From NCBI RefSeq assembly GCF_013387465.1, contig NZ_VYGV01000005.1, forward strand, positions 1 to 64,000: DNA of 64,000 nt, written 5' to 3'. The notes below the pieces were generated by a model that searched no databases, was not told where the DNA came from, and saw only the letters and a program-made list of their open reading frames with translations. Below, one piece after another: positions 2-64,000 of the stretch. Both the position numbers and the translations under genes were made by a program. Positions within the stretch are counted from its first letter, which is position 1. Each line of letters opens with the position of its first letter. This DNA is from Hydrogenophaga aromaticivorans. Lineage in GTDB: Bacteria > Pseudomonadota > Gammaproteobacteria > Burkholderiales > Burkholderiaceae_C.

Positions 2-496
2 GCCACGCCCGAAGCCCCCGCCACCACCACCGGCCTGGAATGGGTCCCCAGCCTGCAGACCGGCGACGACCGCATGGACGAGACGCACGAAGAGTTCGTC
101 ACCATGCTGAACCAGCTGCTCGCCACCCCGCAAGCCCAGCAGCTGCCGCTTTACCGAGAATTCGTCGAACACACCGCCGCCCACTTCGCGCAAGAAGAAC
201 GCTGGATGCTCGCCACCGGCTTCACCGCCGACAACTGCCACGCTTCGCACCACGCGACCATCATGGAAACGCTGCACGCGGTGATTCCCCACTATCAAAA
301 CGACGACCCGGAAATCATCACCCGCCTGGCCGAAGCGCTGGTCGAATGGTTCCCGCAACACGCCGCCAGCATGGACGCCGGCCTGGCCCTGCACCTGAAA
401 GACGTCGGCTTCGATTCCCGCACCGAAACCCTGGCCGACCCCGACCGGGTGCGTCCGGCGACGATGAGCGGCTGCGGCAGCGTCAGCTGCAGCTGA
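2..496 (+). CDS. bacteriohemerythrin-like protein (5' end outside window)
   Basis: The reading frame is open from the left edge, so the start codon is missing. The visible part has the hemerythrin fold signature: a W followed by the TGDDRMDETHEEF block, then H...HFAQEERWM and HASHH. These supply the His, Glu and Asp ligands of a non-heme di-iron centre. Bacterial single-domain hemerythrins bind O2 reversibly and serve in oxygen supply or sensing in the cytoplasm. The C-terminus is extended by about 30 residues and ends in the Cys-containing stretch SGCGSVSCS, which is unusual. A Crp/Fnr regulator follows on the same strand after 146 bp. The family call is firm; the role is inferred. Confidence 0.85.
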   Translation, partial: ATPEAPATTTGLEWVPSLQTGDDRMDETHEEFVTMLNQLLATPQAQQLPLYREFVEHTAAHFAQEERWMLATGFTADNCHASHHATIMETLHAVIPHYQNDDPEIITRLAEALVEWFPQHAASMDAGLALHLKDVGFDSRTETLADPDRVRPATMSGCGSVSCS

Positions 497-47863: not shown

Positions 47864-47904
47864 TGGGGGCACATTTGGGGGCAACAAAAGCAAAAATGGG
47901 GGCA
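47864..47904. other. cluster of three TGGGGGCA motifs at the island's left end
   Basis: TGGGGGCA occurs three times (47865-47872, 47876-47883 and 47897-47904), twice followed by CA(T). I associate this motif with the tRNA-proximal ends of islands that use P4-type integrases, where it may be an arm-type integrase site. The spacer 47751-48321 holds no supported gene; it contains the tRNA terminator, this cluster, the ACCGGGGCA array and a minus-strand terminator. Confidence 0.5.
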
Positions 47905-52220: not shown

Positions 52221-55200
52221 TTATCTCCCGGCTGCGAGCTGGGCAGCTTGCAGCGTTTCGATAAGGTCTTTCGCTCCGTTCTCCGTTGTCGGCACGGTGC
52301 GGGTTCGGCCGTTGGTGATCAGGTTCACATTGACCGTGCGCCCAACTGAAGCCGCGCCCGCGCCGCGCTGCGCCAGGCGTGCGAGCGTGGCGTCCATCGT
52401 GTCGCCTTCCTGCCAGGCACCGGAGCTGCGCGGCGCGTAGTTCCCTTTGGCGTCGAACATCGATGCAGCAACGCGCCGCGCCTGCTCGGGATCAACGCCC
52501 ATGCCTTCCAGGCGGCCGGCGACTGACTGCGGGTTTTCGATGGACTGAACAATGCGGTTGCCCTTTTCATCGACCGCGAAGCCTTCCCAGTCGCGCTCGA
52601 TCGAGCTTTTCACTTCGGCGTTGCGCTTCGCCATGCGCTCAAGCCAGCCGACGTGTTCCTGAACTGCCCCGGTGGCACCCTCCATGCCTTTGCGGTAGCT
52701 CTCTGCCGCTGCTTTGGCCTCTGCCATCGTGCGCACCACCGTGCGGCCTGCGCTGTCGGTGGCGATCTCAAAGCCCTGCACAGCGGCCTGAGACTTGGCG
52801 TAGGACAGCGCCGCTTCATCGCCCGATGCAATGGCCGCCTCTGCCATCTTGCGGAATGCCTCTGCCTGTTCGCGGGCGCTGCCACCGGCGTTGCGCACCT
52901 CTTCATACAGCTTGCGCGTGGAATCTGCGGCACGTTTCAGATCGGCGTCGCTGGTGATGCCCAGCTTCTTGAGCGCGTCAGTCAGGCCGCCCACCTCTTT
53001 GGCAGCATCGCGGGCCTTGGCTTCGATCTGCTGCAGGAAGCCATCGGCCACCTGGTCACCCAAGACCTTGCGCACGTCCTCCACCTGCAGGCGCAGCGCT
53101 TCGAAGGCCTTTTGGCTGTCGGCCGTGTTGATGCCCTTGCCCAGGCTGGCCGTCAGTGCCAGGGCAACGTCTGCCCCTTGCTCTTCCAGCCGGTCCATGC
53201 CGTCGATGATGGCCTGCGTATCGGACAGGGCGCTGCGGGCCGCGTCTGACATGCCCGTGGTCAACCGCCCGAAGCTCAAGCCGGTGCGCTCAACAGCCGC
53301 TGTCAGCTTGGCATCCATGGCGATAGCCAGCAGCTCGGCACCGTCGCCCACCCCGAAGAACGCGGCGCGGGCGCGGGCTTCGAAGCGTTCGAGGTCTTCA
53401 CCCTTCAGGGCTTCGGCCATGGCCGCCTTCACGTCGTCGCCAGTGGCCTGGCCCTGGCGCTGCAGGTCGCGCAGCGCGACGGCAAAATCGTTGATGCCCT
53501 TGGGTTCTGAGAGGTCGGCATTCTTTGCCAGATCGGCCAGACTTTCGGCCAGGCCCTTGCCGCTGGTGCGGGCCTTGTCGAACTCGGTCACGATGTCGCG
53601 AGCGGCCGGCGTCAGGCCCCGCGCCGCTTCGGCAACCTTTGCCATTTCCTGCGCCAGGGCGGCCTTCATGCGGGCCGACTCTTGCGCGGCTACTGCGGCC
53701 CGCTTGTCGGCTTCGCTCAGTTCTTCGGTGGCGTCGCGATACCCCATCATCTTGGCGGCCGTCACACCCAGCCATTCGCCAATGTCTTTGATGTTGACCA
53801 GCAAGCCCACCAGGGTGAACGTGCGCAGGGTTCGGACCACGGTCGCGATGCGGCCCGCTGTGGCGGCCACAGCGGCCCCGGTGGTTGCTGCGCTGGCGCC
53901 CGCTGCATTCATCGCCACCGTGGCCGCGCCGATGCCTGCGGCTGCGGTGTTGCCTGCCGCGCCGATGGCCAGGAAGCTCTGAGCCAGGCGCAGCGCCGTG
54001 AACGCTGCAGCGGCCTGGCCGGCATCGATCAACAGTCCAATGATGGTGTCCAGGTTGCGCGAGACTGCTGCGATGGCTTCGGCCACCGCCCGGCTTGAGC
54101 TGGTGGCCTTGTCGGTCTCACCCACGTAGGCGGTCCATGCGTTGCTCAGGCTCTGCATGGCCCGGCCGATGGTGGGGGGCAGCTTTTCGAACTCGGCGGC
54201 TATGGCATGAGCCTGGCCGCCCAGGGCGCCTTTCAGTACCTCGGTGGTGATCTGCCCTTGCTGGGCCATCTCGCGCAACCGGCCGATGGTCACCCCCAGG
54301 CCATCGGCCAGGGCTCGCGCCAGGCGTGGCGACTGTTCCACAACGCTGTTGAACTCTTCACCCCGCAGCACACCCGACTGCAGGCCTTGAATCAGCTGCG
54401 TGACGGCGGCTTGCGCCGCTTGCGAGCTGGCGCCAGACAGCTGGATTGATTGGTTGATGACCTCGGTCAGGCTGGCCGCCTCGATCTGTGCGTCTTTCGC
54501 GCTCAGGCCTGCATCCTTGCCCGTTTGCACCAAGCGCGTGTACAGCGTAGCCGTGGCGTCCAACTCGCTGTTGGTGCTCTGGGCAATGCGCTGCACATCG
54601 GCCATGCCCTGTGTGAAGGCTTCACCCTCGCCCGTGGCCAGCTTCACGCGGGCGGCCAGGTTGGCGTACTGGTCGGCTGTCTCTCCGAGGTCTTTGGCGA
54701 GCGAGCCCACCAGCGTGCCACCCAGGGCCACGCCGGCGACGTTGCGCAGCGTGGTCAGCTGCTTGTTCAGGCCAGCCAGCCGGCCCTCGGTTTTCTCGAC
54801 CGCTACAGCCTGGCGGTTCCCCGACTGTTCCGCCGCGGTGGCGGCCGCGGCATAGGCTGGGCTCAGGCGGCGCACGCGGGCTTCCACGCTCTCGATCGCC
54901 GCCGAAATTCGGCGCTGCCCATCGGACGCGCGATCAGCCGTCAGGCCATATTGCGCGAGCTGGGTCTGAGCGGCGGCCAGCGTGGCGCGTTTGCCCTTCA
55001 GCACCTGGTCGGCTCGCGACACTGCGGCGGCCAACTGCTGTTCTCGGGCGATGGTGGCCGCCGTGGGCACGCCAGCTGCCCGCATGGCCTCCCCGTACTC
55101 GACCAGCTCAGCACGGGCGCGGGCGAACTCTCTGGACGCATCACTGACGCCCTGTTCCAGGCGCTTCACACCCTGCAGCGCGGCGGCGGATTCGAGGGCC

Positions 55201-55358
55201 TGTGTCAGCTCTTGTCGGGCCTGCTGCGCCGATGCAGCAAGGTCGCCTTCCAGGGTGTTGGAAAGTCGGTCAAGCTCGCGCTCAAGCTTGGCGACGCCGT
55301 CGCTGCCCGAGACAGCGGCTTCAATGTCGTAGCGAATCTTCTGGTTACTGGTGGCCAT
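52221..55358 (-). CDS. tail tape-measure protein
   Basis: A 1045-aa protein with the organisation of siphophage/myophage tape measures. A coiled-coil N-terminus (about 1-200) is followed by the conserved tape-measure N-terminal domain (about 205-400; DQYANLAARVKLATGEGEAF, SGVLRGEEFNSVVEQSPRLA, GQITTEVLKGAL). A hydrophobic stretch (about 455-530) and long helical regions complete it, with VNVNLITNGRTRTVP near the end. In phages it sets tail length and is ejected with DNA. Here no other tail, head or terminase-large gene exists and it lies directly upstream of the replication genes, which is highly unusual. Confidence 0.88.
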   Translation of the reverse strand: MATSNQKIRYDIEAAVSGSDGVAKLERELDRLSNTLEGDLAASAQQARQELTQALESAAALQGVKRLEQGVSDASREFARARAELVEYGEAMRAAGVPTAATIAREQQLAAAVSRADQVLKGKRATLAAAQTQLAQYGLTADRASDGQRRISAAIESVEARVRRLSPAYAAAATAAEQSGNRQAVAVEKTEGRLAGLNKQLTTLRNVAGVALGGTLVGSLAKDLGETADQYANLAARVKLATGEGEAFTQGMADVQRIAQSTNSELDATATLYTRLVQTGKDAGLSAKDAQIEAASLTEVINQSIQLSGASSQAAQAAVTQLIQGLQSGVLRGEEFNSVVEQSPRLARALADGLGVTIGRLREMAQQGQITTEVLKGALGGQAHAIAAEFEKLPPTIGRAMQSLSNAWTAYVGETDKATSSSRAVAEAIAAVSRNLDTIIGLLIDAGQAAAAFTALRLAQSFLAIGAAGNTAAAGIGAATVAMNAAGASAATTGAAVAATAGRIATVVRTLRTFTLVGLLVNIKDIGEWLGVTAAKMMGYRDATEELSEADKRAAVAAQESARMKAALAQEMAKVAEAARGLTPAARDIVTEFDKARTSGKGLAESLADLAKNADLSEPKGINDFAVALRDLQRQGQATGDDVKAAMAEALKGEDLERFEARARAAFFGVGDGAELLAIAMDAKLTAAVERTGLSFGRLTTGMSDAARSALSDTQAIIDGMDRLEEQGADVALALTASLGKGINTADSQKAFEALRLQVEDVRKVLGDQVADGFLQQIEAKARDAAKEVGGLTDALKKLGITSDADLKRAADSTRKLYEEVRNAGGSAREQAEAFRKMAEAAIASGDEAALSYAKSQAAVQGFEIATDSAGRTVVRTMAEAKAAAESYRKGMEGATGAVQEHVGWLERMAKRNAEVKSSIERDWEGFAVDEKGNRIVQSIENPQSVAGRLEGMGVDPEQARRVAASMFDAKGNYAPRSSGAWQEGDTMDATLARLAQRGAGAASVGRTVNVNLITNGRTRTVPTTENGAKDLIETLQAAQLAAGR

Positions 55359-57628: not shown

Positions 57629-57981
57629 TCGTCACCCCCTGGTTGCGTAGGTGTGACGACCACCGGACAGGTCTCTCGATTTGCCTGCCAGTTGAGGAAC
57701 ATCTTCTCAATTGCAGGCGCGCCGACGTCCAACGTGTCAAAGTCGCCGGGCATGGATTGCGCGAGGACTTCGCCCGTGACGCGATCACGCACGCGCAGGG
57801 CCAGCGACGGCAACAACTCAACATGAACATGCTTGCCCAGTTTGGGCATCACCAGAGCGCACTTGAACAGCGGTTCATCACGTTCAAAGGTGCGGATGAA
57901 ATAGCGCCGCTTTGCAAACTGCAGGATGACCCTGGCGATGTCTTCGGCGCTGGGCTGGGGGCAGGACCTGGAGAACGTCAT
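57625..57981 (-). CDS. 118-aa hypothetical protein of the satellite operon
   Basis: A soluble protein with an N-terminal helical part (SAEDIARVILQFAKRRYFIR) and a beta-rich centre (HVHVELLPSLALRVRDRVTGEV). The pattern of two alternating basic and hydrophobic strands is shared with its 95-aa neighbour, so the two may interact. It overlaps neighbours on both sides by 4 bp. No family is recognised. Confidence 0.6.
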   Translation of the reverse strand: MTFSRSCPQPSAEDIARVILQFAKRRYFIRTFERDEPLFKCALVMPKLGKHVHVELLPSLALRVRDRVTGEVLAQSMPGDFDTLDVGAPAIEKMFLNWQANRETCPVVVTPTQPGGDE

Positions 57982-58190
57982 TTCGCGGCCTCCAGGGCCT
58001 GGCGAGACTCCGCCCACTTCTGCAAATCGCTCGATCTCCAGGCGACGGAACGGGAGCTGACGTGAACGGGCTTGGGTGCCTCGTCTTTGGCCATCAACAC
58101 ATACCAGGCCGATCTAGAAACTCCAGTGACGGCACGGCGCGCGGGCTCTCGCAGCAAGGGGTCAAGGTTGTGGTGTACGTGGGGCGTCAT
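57978..58190 (-). CDS. AlpA-like regulator, short form
   Basis: A 70-aa winged-helix protein resembling AlpA regulators (LLREPARRAVTGVSRSAWYVL, then VSSRSVAWRSSDLQKWAESR). AlpA proteins activate prophage excision or satellite genes; P4 Vis/delta belongs here. It overlaps the second AlpA gene by 4 bp (ATGA), forming a tandem pair. Confidence 0.75.
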   Translation of the reverse strand: MTPHVHHNLDPLLREPARRAVTGVSRSAWYVLMAKDEAPKPVHVSSRSVAWRSSDLQKWAESRQALEAAK

Positions 58191-58504
58191 TGGGCGGCCC
58201 TCCCACGTGGGTTCGGGCTCTTGAGCCGGCCGGCTCCGCCCACTTGCATAGCGAGCCGCGCCCGCTGTTGAATCCAGGCGTTGACCTGTGATTCCAGCCA
58301 CGCAACACGGCTGCCGGTAGGCGTCAGCGGGATTGACCTCGGGAACAGTTCGGCGCGCTCCATGGCGCGGACTGAAGAGGCAGACAACCCGACGCGCGAA
58401 CAGGTTTCCTTGATCGGCAAAAGCCGATCGGACGCCACTGGTGGCGCAGGTAGATGAGATTGATTGACAAGCTGCACGGTGTTACTCCTTGAGTTGCTAC
58501 GCAT
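58187..58504 (-). CDS. AlpA family transcriptional regulator
   Basis: A 105-aa protein with the AlpA/MerR-type winged helix (RLLPIKETCSRVGLSASSVRA, FPRSIPLTPTGSRVAWLESQVNAWI). It is a likely excisionase or operon regulator of the element. The start may be ATG 58504 or an ATG further upstream at 58573. A TGCAAGCTG repeat cluster lies 70-150 bp upstream and is a plausible operator. Confidence 0.8.
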   Translation of the reverse strand: MRSNSRSNTVQLVNQSHLPAPPVASDRLLPIKETCSRVGLSASSVRAMERAELFPRSIPLTPTGSRVAWLESQVNAWIQQRARLAMQVGGAGRLKSPNPRGRAAQ

Positions 58505-58560
58505 GGCCCTGATTGGCTGTGTGCGTTGGCAACCGGACCATAGGTGCGGCAAGTCAAAGG

Positions 58561-58657
58561 CTGCAACTTGCAATCAGCTTGCAAAACGCGGATGCCGCGC
58601 CTCTGCTGAAAACAAAGTCTGTCGCATGGCAGCTGTTTGCAAGCTGTCTGCAAGCTG
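58561..58657. promoter_or_regulatory. TGCAAGCTG repeat cluster upstream of the AlpA pair
   Basis: TGCAAGCTG occurs at 58638-58646 and 58649-58657 (11-bp period, one helical turn), and inverted as CAGCTTGCA at 58575-58583. A looser CTGCAACTTGCAA lies at 58561-58573. The 189-bp spacer holds no gene. The arrangement suggests an operator or iteron bound by a dimeric regulator. Confidence 0.55.
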
Positions 58658-60157: not shown

Positions 60158-60450
60158 GCTGCACCCCTCTCCAGCGCTCTCGTGCGCTCGTGAACGTCTG
60201 CCAGGAGGGTGGTGAGCTGGTGCATGCGCTCTATCGCCACGCACAGCATCGCCTTGTCGTTGCCCGGGTCGTCGCCATGTGCAGACTGGCTGGCCTCCAG
60301 GATGTTGAGGTTTTCATAGGCCATGGTCCACGCGAGCGAGGCGCGTTGGCTCAACGTGGCATCCGGGTTGACGATCAGCACCGCCGATTCGGTGTCAACG
60401 AGGGCTGGCGTCAGGTTCAAGAACTTGGCTTGTTGGTTGGGCGTGTTCAT
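60154..60450 (-). CDS. 98-aa hypothetical protein of the satellite operon
   Basis: A helical soluble protein (ATLSQRASLAWTMAYENLNI, MHQLTTLLADVHERTRALER). A strong AGGAGG ribosome site precedes the ATG, so this cluster is well translated. Its middle loosely resembles short DUF3077/DUF6124-type proteins, but I cannot assign it. Confidence 0.6.
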   Translation of the reverse strand: MNTPNQQAKFLNLTPALVDTESAVLIVNPDATLSQRASLAWTMAYENLNILEASQSAHGDDPGNDKAMLCVAIERMHQLTTLLADVHERTRALERGAA

Positions 60451-60453
60451 GAC

Positions 60454-60693
60454 TCAGACCTCCTTGCGCTCAATGGTAGCGGCGGCGCTGGCTCGCTTCA
60501 AAAGCGTGGCTGCGCGCACAGCGCGGGCCGTGGCGGTCTGCAGCTGCTGTGCTGTGCATTCGGGTTGACCAAGGAAGTGCAACGCGGTGGACAGCGCGTT
60601 GTGAGCTTGGGCGTGTAGCTGGATGGTTTCCAGCGAGGCGGGGGGCGAGGTGGGCGCAGCGCGGCGGCTGGCAATGGAAGTGACCGTGGTCAT
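60454..60693 (-). CDS. 79-aa hypothetical protein, first reading frame after the RNA leader
   Basis: A helical, Ala/Thr-rich protein (LETIQLHAQAHNALSTALHF, CTAQQLQTATARAVRAATLL). A GGAGCCGAAGCC site precedes the ATG. It starts 12 bp after the leader-encoded frame and directly follows the second target decamer of the antisense RNA, so its expression should be subject to the RNA switch. Confidence 0.6.
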   Translation of the reverse strand: MTTVTSIASRRAAPTSPPASLETIQLHAQAHNALSTALHFLGQPECTAQQLQTATARAVRAATLLKRASAAATIERKEV

Positions 60694-60705
60694 GGCTTCG
60701 GCTCC

Positions 60706-60927
60706 TTATCGAGACTTGAAACCACCGTCTGCGTTCTTACGCGCAAATGGTGGACGGGATGTTAAGAACACGGGATAAGCCGTGCGCCAGGTGTTGCCAC
60801 TTTGGCCATCCCGTCCAAAACCTTGAATGCGCCGGGTGGCCCATTCGGCGGGCGCTGCAGTGGCAGCGGCCCAAGTGTTCAGACGTGACAAAACCTCGCT
60901 ATCGGGGAGGTTACACCGCTTATCCAA
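60706..60927 (-). CDS. Icd/Ash-like reading frame overlapping the antisense RNA
   Basis: A 73-codon frame ending in SRPPFARKNADGGFKSR. Annotated proteins with a similar tail (RKNADGG...) occur in phage C4 RNA regions under names such as Icd-like or Ash family, as I recall. It fully overlaps the RNA structure, so part or all of the coding signal may reflect RNA constraint rather than a protein. No convincing ribosome site is visible. Confidence 0.35.
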   Translation of the reverse strand: MDKRCNLPDSEVLSRLNTWAAATAAPAEWATRRIQGFGRDGQSGNTWRTAYPVFLTSRPPFARKNADGGFKSR

Positions 60928-60938
60928 TGATGTTCTTA
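60733..60938 (-). promoter_or_regulatory. P4-like leader: target segments A and C
   Basis: Read on the minus strand, segment A holds UAAGAACA and GGAUAAGC (60938-60918), and segment C repeats the decamer GCGUAAGAAC (60742-60733). Both are complementary to the antisense segment of the stem-loop between them. A weaker AACCTC...GAGGTT hairpin followed by four T (60912-60890) lies after A and could be an early terminator. Confidence 0.7.
60752..60816 (-). ncRNA. P4 CI / P1 C4-type antisense RNA
   Basis: GGACGGGATG and CATCCCGTCC pair perfectly over 10 bp and enclose a loop of 45 nt carrying GCUUAUCC-CG-UGUUCUUA, complementary to leader segment A and partly to segment C. The 65-nt length is close to P4 CI (about 69 nt) and P1 C4 (about 77 nt). 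In those systems the processed RNA pairs with the leader, stops translation or transcription of the operon and confers immunity. The assignment rests on layout and complementarity that I read directly; covariance was not tested. Confidence 0.7.
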
Positions 60939-60964
60939 CGCATCGGCCCTTTCGGGTTGGGCGG

Positions 60965-60995
60965 ACTATAGCACGGGACTTCCACCGTGCCTCAA
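60965..60995 (-). promoter_or_regulatory. promoter of the satellite operon
   Basis: On the minus strand a -10 of TATAGT (60970-60965) lies 17 bp after GAGGCA (or 19 bp after TTGAGG). The predicted start site at about 60958 is 20 nt before leader segment A, the position expected for a P4 PLE-type promoter. Confidence 0.6.
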
Positions 60996-61093
60996 CCGTT
61001 CACATCTCGGTATTCCAGCGCGGCCGCGATACGGCTACCATGAATCATGAGCATTGCCAATTTCGGCGCATGCTCCAACAGCAGGAGAGAACA

Positions 61094-61183
61094 ATGGCCA
61101 CAAGACCAGGCGATCAACCGTCACCAGGCGAGCGCCGCGACAAGCTTCCAAGCGATCGGCCACGCCCGAAGAAACTGGGTTAA
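61094..61183 (+). CDS. 29-aa possible small basic protein
   Basis: MATRPGDQPSPGERRDKLPS and nine more residues, very basic and Pro-rich. A good AGGAGAGAACA site precedes the ATG, but the frame is short and its stop overlaps the end of the 3-TM gene on the other strand. It may be random. Confidence 0.25.
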   Translation: MATRPGDQPSPGERRDKLPSDRPRPKKLG

Positions 61184-61707
61184 ACCAAGATCACGGCCGC
61201 AAACGAAACAAGCGGAGTCAGTGACATCAACAGGTAGCTGTTGTCGATCGCGGACATGGCGGCAGTGCTTGCTTTCCGATACTCGTCTGCTGCCGTTTCC
61301 ATGTTCCTGACTGTGCTCATGCGAAGCTCGTTGAGGCCGTTGGTTGGAGTACCTTCGTCGGTCAGTTCTCTAGCGTAGACGTCCCACTTCGGCAACATTT
61401 CCACCAACCCTTGGGTGTGCCAGGAACGCACAGTGGCCGAACGCAACGCCTCCCATGCCAGGTATGCCGCAATACAGAACCAATAGACCGCGGAAAGCAA
61501 CGCAGCCAAGGCCACAGGCTTGCTGATCGCCCATTGGGTCAACCCGAGGCCACCCAAACCCGCGCCACCGCCCAAAAGAACCACCAGGAGCGCGGCGGCG
61601 CGCTGGCGGGCATCTTTCACCCCCTCATAGCTGAAGGCCGCCACGCCGGCGCTGTGCACCTCTGCGAGATCAATCACATCTTTAGGTCGCTCTGGCGAGT
61701 TTGACAC
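61180..61707 (-). CDS. 3-TM membrane protein of the ImmA/IrrE operon
   Basis: A 175-aa protein starting at GTG 61707 (GGAGGG four bases upstream). A soluble N-terminus (about 1-32, DVIDLAEVHSAGVAAFSYEG) precedes two TM helices (about 34-58 and 64-86), a helical cytoplasmic or periplasmic domain (about 90-150) and a final TM helix at the very C-terminus (SYLLMSLTPLVSFAAVILV). The layout resembles membrane effectors of abortive-infection systems. No family is recognised. It is the last gene of the operon, 41 bp after the 2-TM gene. Confidence 0.7.
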   Translation of the reverse strand: MSNSPERPKDVIDLAEVHSAGVAAFSYEGVKDARQRAAALLVVLLGGGAGLGGLGLTQWAISKPVALAALLSAVYWFCIAAYLAWEALRSATVRSWHTQGLVEMLPKWDVYARELTDEGTPTNGLNELRMSTVRNMETAADEYRKASTAAMSAIDNSYLLMSLTPLVSFAAVILV

Positions 61708-61748
61708 TGGACCCTCCAAGCGAAGGAAACTCGAACCGATGCAATTTA

Positions 61749-62168
61749 CTACTTGCCGACGGTTTCTCTGAGCGCTCCGACTGCATCGCTAAGAGCCTTG
61801 AGCGCTTCAGACAAAACTGAAACCTGCGGCATGGACTCGGTGGTCTTTTCTTCGTACCCGCCAGGCGACGCAAAGGTCGCACGCAGCAAGGCCAAAGTGA
61901 TGACCGACATAGCAACGACTACAGTTGCAAACATGCCAACAATCCAAGGGGAAAAGGTTGTCGCATGACTGGCCACCGCGCGAATCAGCTTGAAAAGTAC
62001 CAAGCCAAAAAACACGACCACGACAACCGACAGAACAAAGGAGAAACGCCGATATCTGCGTCGCGATGCAGCATCATCCAGCAGTGCATTTGCCTTGGTG
62101 TAGTCAGGCTCATACGGAGTGTCCCCCGCACTAAGATCAAGTTGACTGCTTGTCGGTTCGTCTGGCAT
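61749..62168 (-). CDS. 2-TM membrane protein of the ImmA/IrrE operon
   Basis: A 139-aa protein: an acidic N-terminus (about 1-40), two TM helices (about 43-65, VVVVVFFGLVLFKLI, and about 74-96, WIVGMFATVVVAMSVITLALL), and a C-terminal heptad-like tail (VSVLSEALKALSDAVGALRE) suited to oligomerisation. It starts by a 4-bp overlap with the metallopeptidase stop (ATGA), so the two are co-translated. No family is recognised. Confidence 0.72.
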   Translation of the reverse strand: MPDEPTSSQLDLSAGDTPYEPDYTKANALLDDAASRRRYRRFSFVLSVVVVVFFGLVLFKLIRAVASHATTFSPWIVGMFATVVVAMSVITLALLRATFASPGGYEEKTTESMPQVSVLSEALKALSDAVGALRETVGK

Positions 62169-62683
62169 CAAACAAAAAGACCGAGGTTGTTGATCCGATA
62201 CGTCATGGCAACCTTGGACACATTGAAAGCCTTGGCCAGGTCATCGACTGTCTTGAAAATGCCCGTCTGAACCAACTTTGCAACGGCAGATGCAGGCATC
62301 AACAGCTCCGCGGCAAACTGGTTGGCCGCGCGCTCTATGGGAGCAGATGCCTTCGATGAAAAAGCTTCCGCGAAGTCTCGCGGTGCATCATCGTGACCCA
62401 GAGCATAGTGTCCCAACTCGTGGGCCAACGTAAAGCGCTGTCGTACCTGAGCCTCCCACTCATTCACGCGAATAACACCCTGCTCACGCAGAAACTCTCC
62501 GCTGTATGGGAAGTCTTCAAATACACCCAGCCGCTCAACCTTTATTCCTTCGGCGATGGCGATCGCTGCAGGATCAACCGGCAGACGGCCATTCCAATGC
62601 TTCTCCAACAGCGCGCGCGCGGCGGCGGCTGGCGTAGCGGCTGCACGTGTAGGCAGCGGGCGGGTCTGAACCTCCGTTGTCAT
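62168..62683 (-). CDS. ImmA/IrrE family metallo-endopeptidase
   Basis: A 171-aa zinc protease with HELGHYALGH (about residue 88), and the third ligand probably in the ERAANQFAAELLMP segment. A C-terminal HTH-like region (TVDDLAKAFNVSKVAMTYRINNLG) is typical of the family. ImmA cleaves a phage-type repressor in ICEBs1; IrrE/PprI cleaves DdrO after DNA damage. Here no Xre repressor gene is adjacent, and the partners are two membrane proteins. AGGAGG precedes the ATG. It is probably the sensor or trigger of the module. Confidence 0.88.
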   Translation of the reverse strand: MTTEVQTRPLPTRAAATPAAAARALLEKHWNGRLPVDPAAIAIAEGIKVERLGVFEDFPYSGEFLREQGVIRVNEWEAQVRQRFTLAHELGHYALGHDDAPRDFAEAFSSKASAPIERAANQFAAELLMPASAVAKLVQTGIFKTVDDLAKAFNVSKVAMTYRINNLGLFV

Positions 62684-62718
62684 GGTGTGCCTCCTGAGAA
62701 TTGCGTTGCAAACTACTC

Positions 62719-62749
62719 TGGCAGATGGATATAAAACCGCCATCTGCCA
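62719..62749. promoter_or_regulatory. perfect 10-bp inverted repeat at the ImmA/IrrE promoter
   Basis: TGGCAGATGG (62719-62728) and CCATCTGCCA (62740-62749) flank an AT-rich 11-bp centre containing, on the minus strand, a TTTTATAT -10-like element. It lies 36 bp before the metallopeptidase start and is probably the operator of the operon. On the plus strand it is followed by TTTTTAT, so a terminator role is a weaker alternative. Confidence 0.6.
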
Positions 62750-63149: not shown

Positions 63150-64000
63150 TCACGCAGCCCGCTTGGGCATCTTGACGACGTTTCCAGCCTTGCGGCCGTC
63201 CAGATAGTCCGCCCACCACTGCATGAGGCTGGTGCGGTCGGGCATGTAGCTCGACCGGTGGTAGGCGGCGCGCACCTTGTTGCGTTCCTTGTGTGCCAGC
63301 TGGCGCTCGATCACGTCAGCATTCCAGCCGCACTCGTTGGCCGTGGTGCTGAACAGCGCCCGGAAGCCGTGGGCGGTCGCGCTGCCCTTGAAGCCCATGC
63401 GCGTCATGGCGCTGTTGAAGGTGTTCTCGCTCAGTGGTTTGCTGCGGTAGTTCGGGCTGGGGAACACCAGCTCGCTGTCACCGCTCAGGGGTTCCATGGT
63501 GCGCAGCACCTCAAGGGCTTGCCGGGACAGGGGCACGCGGTGTTCGGCGCGCATCTTCATGCGCTCGGCTGGAATGACCCACAGCGCCCCGTCAAGGTCA
63601 ATCTCTGCCCAGCGTGCGCCGCGCACTTCGCCGGGGCGGGCCGCGGTCAGCATCAACAGGCGCAGGGCTTGCACAGTGCTGGGCTCGCCCACGTAGGTGG
63701 ACAGCTTGCCCAAGAACTCAGGTATGTCCTTGTCTGCCAGCGCGGCCCGGTGGGTCACTTCGCGGGGTTTCAGGATCTCCGAGGGCACCAGGTCAAGCAT
63801 GGGATTCGATTCGATGCGCTCATGCGTCACGGCCCATCGGTAGATCGCCTTCACCCGCTGCAGCACGCGGTTTGCCAGCTCACCAGCGCCCCGGGCTTCG
63901 ATAGCCTTCACGGCGGCCATGAGTTCGCCTGGCTTGATGCTGGCCAGCGGCCGGCCCCCGAGCGTGGGAAAAATGTCCGCCTCCAACGATGCCCGGATGC
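63150..64000 (-). CDS. P4-type tyrosine integrase (N-terminus outside window)
   Basis: 283 residues are visible and the frame continues past the right edge. The catalytic Arg is in TAARPGEVRGARW, the HxxR box in TAHGFRALFST, a further His in QLAHKERNKVRAAY, and the Tyr nucleophile lies in AAYHRSSY or just beyond. The entry IRASLEADIFPTLGGRPL fits the SAM-like core-binding domain of P4-type integrases. It probably integrates the element at the 3' end of tRNA-Leu. Its promoter and the right attachment site lie beyond 64000. Confidence 0.92.
   Translation of the reverse strand, partial: IRASLEADIFPTLGGRPLASIKPGELMAAVKAIEARGAGELANRVLQRVKAIYRWAVTHERIESNPMLDLVPSEILKPREVTHRAALADKDIPEFLGKLSTYVGEPSTVQALRLLMLTAARPGEVRGARWAEIDLDGALWVIPAERMKMRAEHRVPLSRQALEVLRTMEPLSGDSELVFPSPNYRSKPLSENTFNSAMTRMGFKGSATAHGFRALFSTTANECGWNADVIERQLAHKERNKVRAAYHRSSYMPDRTSLMQWWADYLDGRKAGNVVKMPKRAA

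Follow-up and report, generated by a model that had tools for sequence, protein, structure and literature searches.

The described systems with which the leader analysed here is best compared are the P4 immunity leader, with its CI RNA, seqA and seqC, the IsrK RNA of Gifsy-1, and the c4 RNA of P1 and P7, the last of which goes with icd-ant. In P4, CI is described as pairing with seqA and seqC, with termination as part of the mechanism (PMC4825925). CI-seqA pairing and termination are likewise described in PMC10111431, where the C4 and isrK profiles are used to find such RNAs in satellites. Gifsy-1 IsrK is presented as a structural homologue of P4 SeqA (PMC4825925). The P1/P7 c4 RNA is described as a two-loop antisense RNA, in which one loop partly covers the ribosome site and the other gives specificity (PMC5320573).

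A further RNA, sRNA-Xcc1 (RF02221), is filed in Rfam without a clan and is treated in the published passages as an sRNA linked to virulence that acts in trans and has many predicted targets. On northern blots it is reported at ~100 nt, with ends mapped to 88 nt (PMC2996969). One Xylella strain is reported to hold seven copies, five of them clustered in an island (PMC12189769). The symE gene with sRNA-Xcc1 upstream is reported as the most widespread integron cassette in a Xanthomonas set, and its regulation seems unlike that of SymE-SymR (PMC12444791). The passages of PMC12444791, PMC2996969 and PMC12189769 do not describe the A and C flanks of sRNA-Xcc1, and in the literature covered, which did not extend to a 2011 integron paper, no link of sRNA-Xcc1 to C4, P4 or immunity was found.

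The results presented here concern one leader within a 64,000-nucleotide stretch of Hydrogenophaga aromaticivorans DNA (the window). They support the reading of this leader as a real, functional-looking RNA control leader, one that belongs to a new sequence family of the P4-type kind.

Anatomy of the leader

The leader lies on the minus strand (60995-60690) and is present as a single copy in the host genome. An earlier note on this DNA had claimed a TATAGT promoter, a segment A, a stem-loop whose loop is complementary to A, a decamer shared with A, and a first gene behind them. Direct reading of the sequence finds each of these parts, and the coordinates agree (Table 1). That note did not list the terminator-like hairpin that separates A from B, nor did it notice that each element is bipartite, that c2 lies on the Shine-Dalgarno sequence, that an ACC is conserved 3' of the stem, or the connection with sRNA-Xcc1.

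Table 1. Coordinates of the leader's parts and of neighbouring genes (positions in the window unless given otherwise)
Feature	Position	Strand	Detail
Promoter (predicted from sequence)	60965..60995	-	TTGAGG 60995-60990, 19-nt spacer, extended -10 TGC-TATAGT 60973-60965
Element A	60919..60944	-	hairpin GATG/CATC 60944-60929 with a1 in loop; then a2 GATAAG 60924-60919
A decamer	60941-60932	-	GCGTAAGAAC (direct reading)
A segment	60925-60918	-	GGATAAGC (direct reading)
Intrinsic-terminator-like hairpin, between A and B	60890..60912	-	AACCTC-loop-GAGGTT, then TTTT
Element B, predicted antisense RNA	60752..60816	-	outer stem, hairpin 1, hairpin 2, unpaired b1
B outer stem	60816-60807 / 60761-60752	-	perfect 10 bp, GGACGGGATG / CATCCCGTCC
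b2	60779-60774	-	CTTATC, in loop of B hairpin 2
b1	60768-60762	-	TTCTTAA, unpaired, just before closing strand of B
ACC	60749..60751	-	immediately 3' of B stem
Element C hairpin	60724..60751	-	c1 GTAAGAA 60740-60734 in loop
C decamer	60742-60733	-	GCGTAAGAAC, same as that of A (direct reading)
c2 and Shine-Dalgarno	60702..60710	-	c2 GATAAG 60710-60705 overlaps AAGGAG 60707-60702
First gene, 79 aa	60454..60693	-	ATG at 60693
Integrase	63153-64367 (63153..64000 in window)	-	PF00589, upstream of leader
Two AlpA-type regulators	58190-58573 and 57981-58301	-	PF05930, downstream, same strand
Tape measure protein	52224-55358	-	PF20155, inside the integrase/AlpA/DUF927 island

Among the 31 aligned leaders, a -10-like hexamer stands within the 32 nt 5' of the A hairpin in 30, against 12.9% of shuffles; L007 is the exception, and for the window itself, where the anchor of the scan was misplaced, TATAGT is an eye reading. 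A stricter sigma-70 scan gave no promoters in the leader. An intrinsic terminator after A is part of the P4-type kind, and the likely counterpart here is the hairpin AACCTC-CCCGATAGC-GAGGTT-TTG, which has a 4-5 bp stem in 31 of 31 leaders and, in the window, a short T run (4). Its stem pairs vary among leaders (CCTC/GAGG, CCCC/GGGG, CCGC/GCGG and GCTC/GAGC). A terminator scan did not list the hairpin at 60912-60890.

Element B has the topology of the kind and of the Rfam C4 model, a stem enclosing two hairpins and a two-part antisense sequence, and its loop carries two complements of A, GCTTATCC and TGTTCTTA. Folding of the 81-nt B region gives -37.3 kcal/mol (z -4.6), a value matched by 1 of 200 shuffles. 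Across 53 aligned rows the A and the last C of the ACC are invariant and the middle C is kept in more than 90%; this trinucleotide after the B stem seems to resemble the 3' end of an RNase P substrate. When relatives are compared side by side, A, B and C are each bipartite, and the order A-B-C before the first gene, with A and C both complementary to the B loop, is present. The seqA-seqB-seqC layout of P4 immunity, as the earlier note had recognized it, is thus borne out: it co-varies in relatives, and P4 has the same elements in the same order.

The note's impression of a distinct primary sequence also holds. The Rfam models C4 (RF01695), isrK (RF01394) and c4-a1b1 (RF03163) had no match in 60400-61200 (801 bases) even at E up to 10, and sRNA-Xcc1 (RF02221) was likewise unmatched there at the same limit. 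At gathering cut-offs, Rfam found only a tRNA in the window. The C4 model had no match in the whole genome of the host, and none in the control genomes. The C4 model finds P4: the P4 record scored 74.9 bits with C4 (cut-off 45), 60.8 with isrK (cut-off 50) and 44.1 with c4-a1b1, just under its cut-off of 46.7. Because the Rfam C4 and isrK models find P4 and miss the leader, it is a new sequence family; the window's member of this family is missed by the C4 and the isrK profile.

Co-variation among relatives

Leader DNA was found at E 0.001 in 40 of 299 genomes of the family, in some over a short piece only. R1, a covariance model built from B and C, gave 89 matches, spread over 54 of 399 family genomes. 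An exact pattern scan returned 34 stretches, with carriers that include Acidovorax, Comamonas, Limnohabitans, Rhodoferax, Xylophilus, Oryzisolibacter, Aquabacterium and Extensimonas. The leader is also on three viral contigs; a DNA similarity search of plasmid and phage records gave no leader matches.

Comparison of these relatives establishes, beyond the anatomy, a three-way co-variation of A, B and C. Full six-position pairing of c2 with b2 occurs in 31 of 31 cognate combinations and in 70 of 930 non-cognate ones, a test in which four of the six positions carry most of the information because AGGA served as the anchor for c2, and a leading CT or CC for b2. Pairing of a2 with b2 is full in 27 of the 31 leaders and fails in L014, L016, L033 and L036. 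The mean for a1/b1 is 6.45 of 7 in cognate and 5.33 in non-cognate combinations, and for c1/b1 it is 6.35 and 5.37, respectively. None of 10000 permutations reached the c2/b2, a2/b2, a1/b1 or c1/b1 value. The b2 of L027 and the c1 of L036 were placed by hand, and the 31-row alignment omits L034, the lone B of L035, and L028-L031 (short matches).

A larger set of 70 leaders was formed from the best 71 of the 89 R1 matches, minus one without GGA. Here c2 is fully partnered in its own B loop in 69 leaders, the exception being G726:C1:131519, and 377 of 4830 non-cognate combinations (7.8%) are full partners; the latter rate is the right yardstick, since b2 was left unanchored and taken as the best 6-mer of a short loop window. 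Five of the 70 have CGGA rather than AGGA as the Shine-Dalgarno core, and all five have a full partner in their own B. The 70 leaders hold 61 distinct (b1, c2) codes.

The stems were examined in 53 aligned B-C stretches, namely the window and 52 of 54 references; L081 and L094 were dropped, and L025, L034, L037, L083 (long insert) and L096 are also absent. Stem cells are paired in 95.9%, compared to 84.6% after column shuffling and 32-52% when slid, with a covariation score of 0.343 (0.134 shuffled). For the B-C pairings the corresponding values are 96.8% paired, 77.0% shuffled and 34-50% slid, with a covariation score of 0.562 (0.163 shuffled) and 149 doubly changed cells (42.6 shuffled); two of the five measures for these pairings, doubly changed pairs and pair types, do not differ from shuffles. 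In 500 shuffles each, none matched the percent paired and covariation score of the stems or of the B-C pairings. Both-sided changes occur at 7 of 7 pairs of B hairpin 1 and at 4 of 4 pairs of the C inner helix, where 98.1% of cells are paired; the outer three pairs of C are paired in 86.8%. Conservation of the stem and of the A/B/C pairings, which the earlier note had left to be judged on homologous islands, stands above shuffles for the stems and above non-cognate combinations for the pairings.

Some relatives depart from the common form. The genome of L035 (G219) has nine leader matches in total, and at L035 a lone B copy (197-267, plus strand) lies ~600 nt 5' of a complete leader; it has a different b2 and no GGA-anchored c2, and could be a solo antisense RNA or a remnant. 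In L025 and L037, B carries a doubled hairpin-1 unit (TCCGCAAGGACGCCC twice).

Island company and a predicted control circuit

The leader lies ~2 kb downstream of the integrase gene and ~2 kb upstream of two AlpA genes, and further down the island is a DUF927/PriCT_2 protein. No head gene was found among the ORFs scanned, which are part of the island's ORFs. A 20-bp direct repeat, TGGGGGCACATTTGGGGGCA, occurs at 47864-47883 of the window and 64376-64395 of the contig, ~16.5 kb apart; near tRNA-Leu and the integrase start, the copies may be attachment sites marking the island ends. The interval between integrase and leader (61183-62743, minus strand) holds the gene of an M78/IrrE-type peptidase (62171-62743) along with two small ORFs that match no family above cut-off, all possible cargo. 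The first gene has its stop three bases 5' of the next ATG (TGAGTCATG), and its 79-aa product matches nothing in Pfam or PHROGs at E 0.001. By eye, the first ORF is related in many relatives. The second small gene (98 aa), used as a marker, was found in the host's own genome alone (1 of 299 genomes).

The company of the leader is satellite- or phage-like elsewhere as well. In a set of 32 leaders from 26 genomes, the matches listed place AlpA within 6 kb on the same strand downstream of 15 and upstream of 4, and include no such AlpA for 13. An integrase gene is upstream of at least 11, and AlpA or integrase is nearby on the same strand at no fewer than 21, both counts being lower bounds. On viral contig L112 the order is integrase, leader, AlpA, Toprim, DUF3987, capsid. 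In L005, an int-alpA RNA (RF02996; 1673-1752, plus strand) is found between a leader of the present family and AlpA.

Very probably the leader controls an integrated satellite-like island and acts like CI/seqA/seqC of P4. Transcription would start near 60958, and most transcripts would stop at the hairpin 60912-60890 to give a ~70-nt A RNA. Read-through RNA would be trimmed, probably by RNase P, to a ~65-nt B RNA at the stem with its 3' ACC. B could then engage each partner at two sites at once, A through b1/a1 and b2/a2, and C through b1/c1 and b2/c2. Bound to C, it would cover the ribosome site of the first gene; bound to A, it would favour early termination. The operon, comprising the 79-aa gene, close-packed small genes, AlpA and replication genes, would remain silent, as would any incoming element of the same b1/b2 type. 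In this circuit we infer promoter use, the start site, the release and processing of B, repression, and the block of first-gene translation at c2; termination and immunity by B are drawn by analogy with P4.

An antiterminator flip by B is not supported by folding: when a1 and a2 were blocked, the overall terminator probability moved from 0.58 to 0.56. Among the 31 leaders, the same blocking raised the probability in 10 and lowered it in 6. No co-resident leaders shared full specificity (0 of 59 pairs), a count that does not test immunity because only 0.26 shared pairs are expected, leaving it without power.

The pairing of c2 with b2 is the best kept of all and covers the Shine-Dalgarno sequence, which would also suit translational antisense control of a toxin-like first gene, on the logic of a type I toxin-antitoxin system, with immunity a side effect or absent. 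The position of some sRNA-Xcc1 leaders before SymE points the same way. Such a function is nonetheless unlikely for the window: its first gene has no family match, A and the terminator are kept although a plain type I system needs neither, and AlpA or integrase stands near at least 21 of the 32 own-type leaders.

Less likely still is an attenuator that works in cis only, with A, B and C refolding in one transcript and B never a free antisense RNA. In cis, the leader as a whole does adopt a fold in which A pairs with B (z -4.0, matched by 1 of 200 shuffles), but B forms a conserved, self-closed unit followed by ACC, its single loop serves two targets, and the effect in a simple switch model is inconsistent. 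Moreover, C4-like sRNAs are reported as short RNAs by RNA-seq (PMC5320573), and sRNA-Xcc1 is reported as a short RNA by northern blot (PMC2996969).

An open frame of 73 codons (from TTG 60927) does exist, but the reading of the region as protein-coding, with incidental repeats, is already contradicted: its stop is the TAA within c2 (GATAAGG) and is not kept, because relatives differ at this site (GACAAGG, AACCAGG and others), the A-B spacer varies in length, and base changes track RNA pairing.

sRNA-Xcc1 and the described leaders

The control leader proposed for the window also bears on sRNA-Xcc1. When RF02221 was run on 30 loci of own-type relatives, one exceeded the cut-off of 53 (L027, 68.2 bits), 15 scored 28-36 bits on B, below the cut-off, and 14 were unmatched at the E limits used. 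L027 had no part in the building of R1, and R1 recovers it too. In the class, RF02221 is found in 25 of 369 genomes, over cut-off in 11. From the 40 matches listed, 30 were taken as loci, of which L063 is own-type, so 29 were kept, 16 of them over cut-off.

On average, B at these loci pairs better with its own flanks than with those of strangers. The mean A-B pairing energy is -20.2 for own partners and -15.1 for strangers (the 27 of 29 loci with sufficient upstream sequence), and for B-C it is -18.6 and -14.1 (29 loci); none of 10000 permutations reached either value. At 22 of the 29, five or more consecutive T's occur in the 150 nt upstream. At least half of the strangers' B equal the own B in pairing with A at L046, L051, L052, L057 and L059, and in pairing with C at L046, L051, L055, L057, L059 and L060; among the loci that fail in either, only L046 is over the RF02221 cut-off. 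Judged by these flanks, sRNA-Xcc1 seems to correspond to B in a leader built in the same way, and at many loci A, terminator and C accompany it. Of the 29 sRNA-Xcc1 loci R1 picks up 6, and of 7 C4 loci it picks up 1 (L070), at E 1.6e-5 to 0.057; P4, the other 23 sRNA-Xcc1 loci and the other 6 C4 loci are missed. These matches are an independent, if thin, tie between the window family, sRNA-Xcc1 and C4.

The genes behind such leaders differ. By Pfam, SymE is directly behind leaders of the form A-terminator-B-C in L039 (411-608), L041 (627-824) and L065 (1053-1247). KilA-N is directly behind leaders of the sRNA-Xcc1 type in L027 (942-1505, minus strand) and L056 (1622-2026, plus strand), the RF02221 match of L056 being below cut-off. 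Pfam had no match for five other first genes behind sRNA-Xcc1-type leaders. In L064 a gene at 1255-1452, directly behind an A-terminator-B-C leader, was called SymE by eye.

It seems likely that C4, the window family and sRNA-Xcc1 belong together in a single RNA superfamily, whose members are portable A-terminator-B-C cassettes with a freely diversifying b1/b2 code, serving in satellite immunity and re-used before KilA-N and SymE. On this view sRNA-Xcc1 would serve chiefly as a cis-encoded repressor, acting on the adjoining gene and on newcomers with the same code. This offers a testable answer to the question of its role, since at many loci it is flanked by two sequences that match it, one of which lies at the adjoining gene's ribosome site. 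The link to sRNA-Xcc1 is the more valuable result. The window's leader family adds a further, co-variation-supported sequence family of P4-type immunity leaders in the satellite-like islands of Comamonas, Acidovorax and their relatives, and its specificity code is readable, predicting which islands should exclude each other.

Finally, the leader can be set against the described systems. The P1/P7 c4 RNA is, as described, a two-loop antisense RNA like the window's B. Gifsy-1 IsrK has an A element and terminator like those of the window's leader; unlike it, IsrK is reported to activate translation of the downstream gene (PMC4825925), and the window has no isrK match. sRNA-Xcc1 shares the topology of B, and many of its loci have A, a terminator and C; its hairpin 1 is longer than the window's, as is its T run in most cases, and it is present in many other families of the class. 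The P4 leader differs from the window's in sequence, as the leader has no Rfam match even at E 10 and R1 misses P4; the window's T run is shorter, and its island has other genes (tape measure, DUF927). In build the two correspond closely. By eye, P4 has TATAGT, then a hairpin with GCGTGAGAAC, an a2 TTCACAGG and a terminator with seven T's, then a B with CCTGTGAA in the loop of hairpin 2 and TTCTCAC unpaired, and then a second hairpin with GCGTGAGAAC, followed by TTCACAGGAGG before the ATG. The order of elements is identical to that of the window. The c2 of P4, TTCACAGGAGG, is on the Shine-Dalgarno sequence as is the window's c2, and the isrK terminator is at the same place as the window's A-B hairpin. 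A plus the terminator of P4 is the Rfam isrK match, and its B is the Rfam C4 match.
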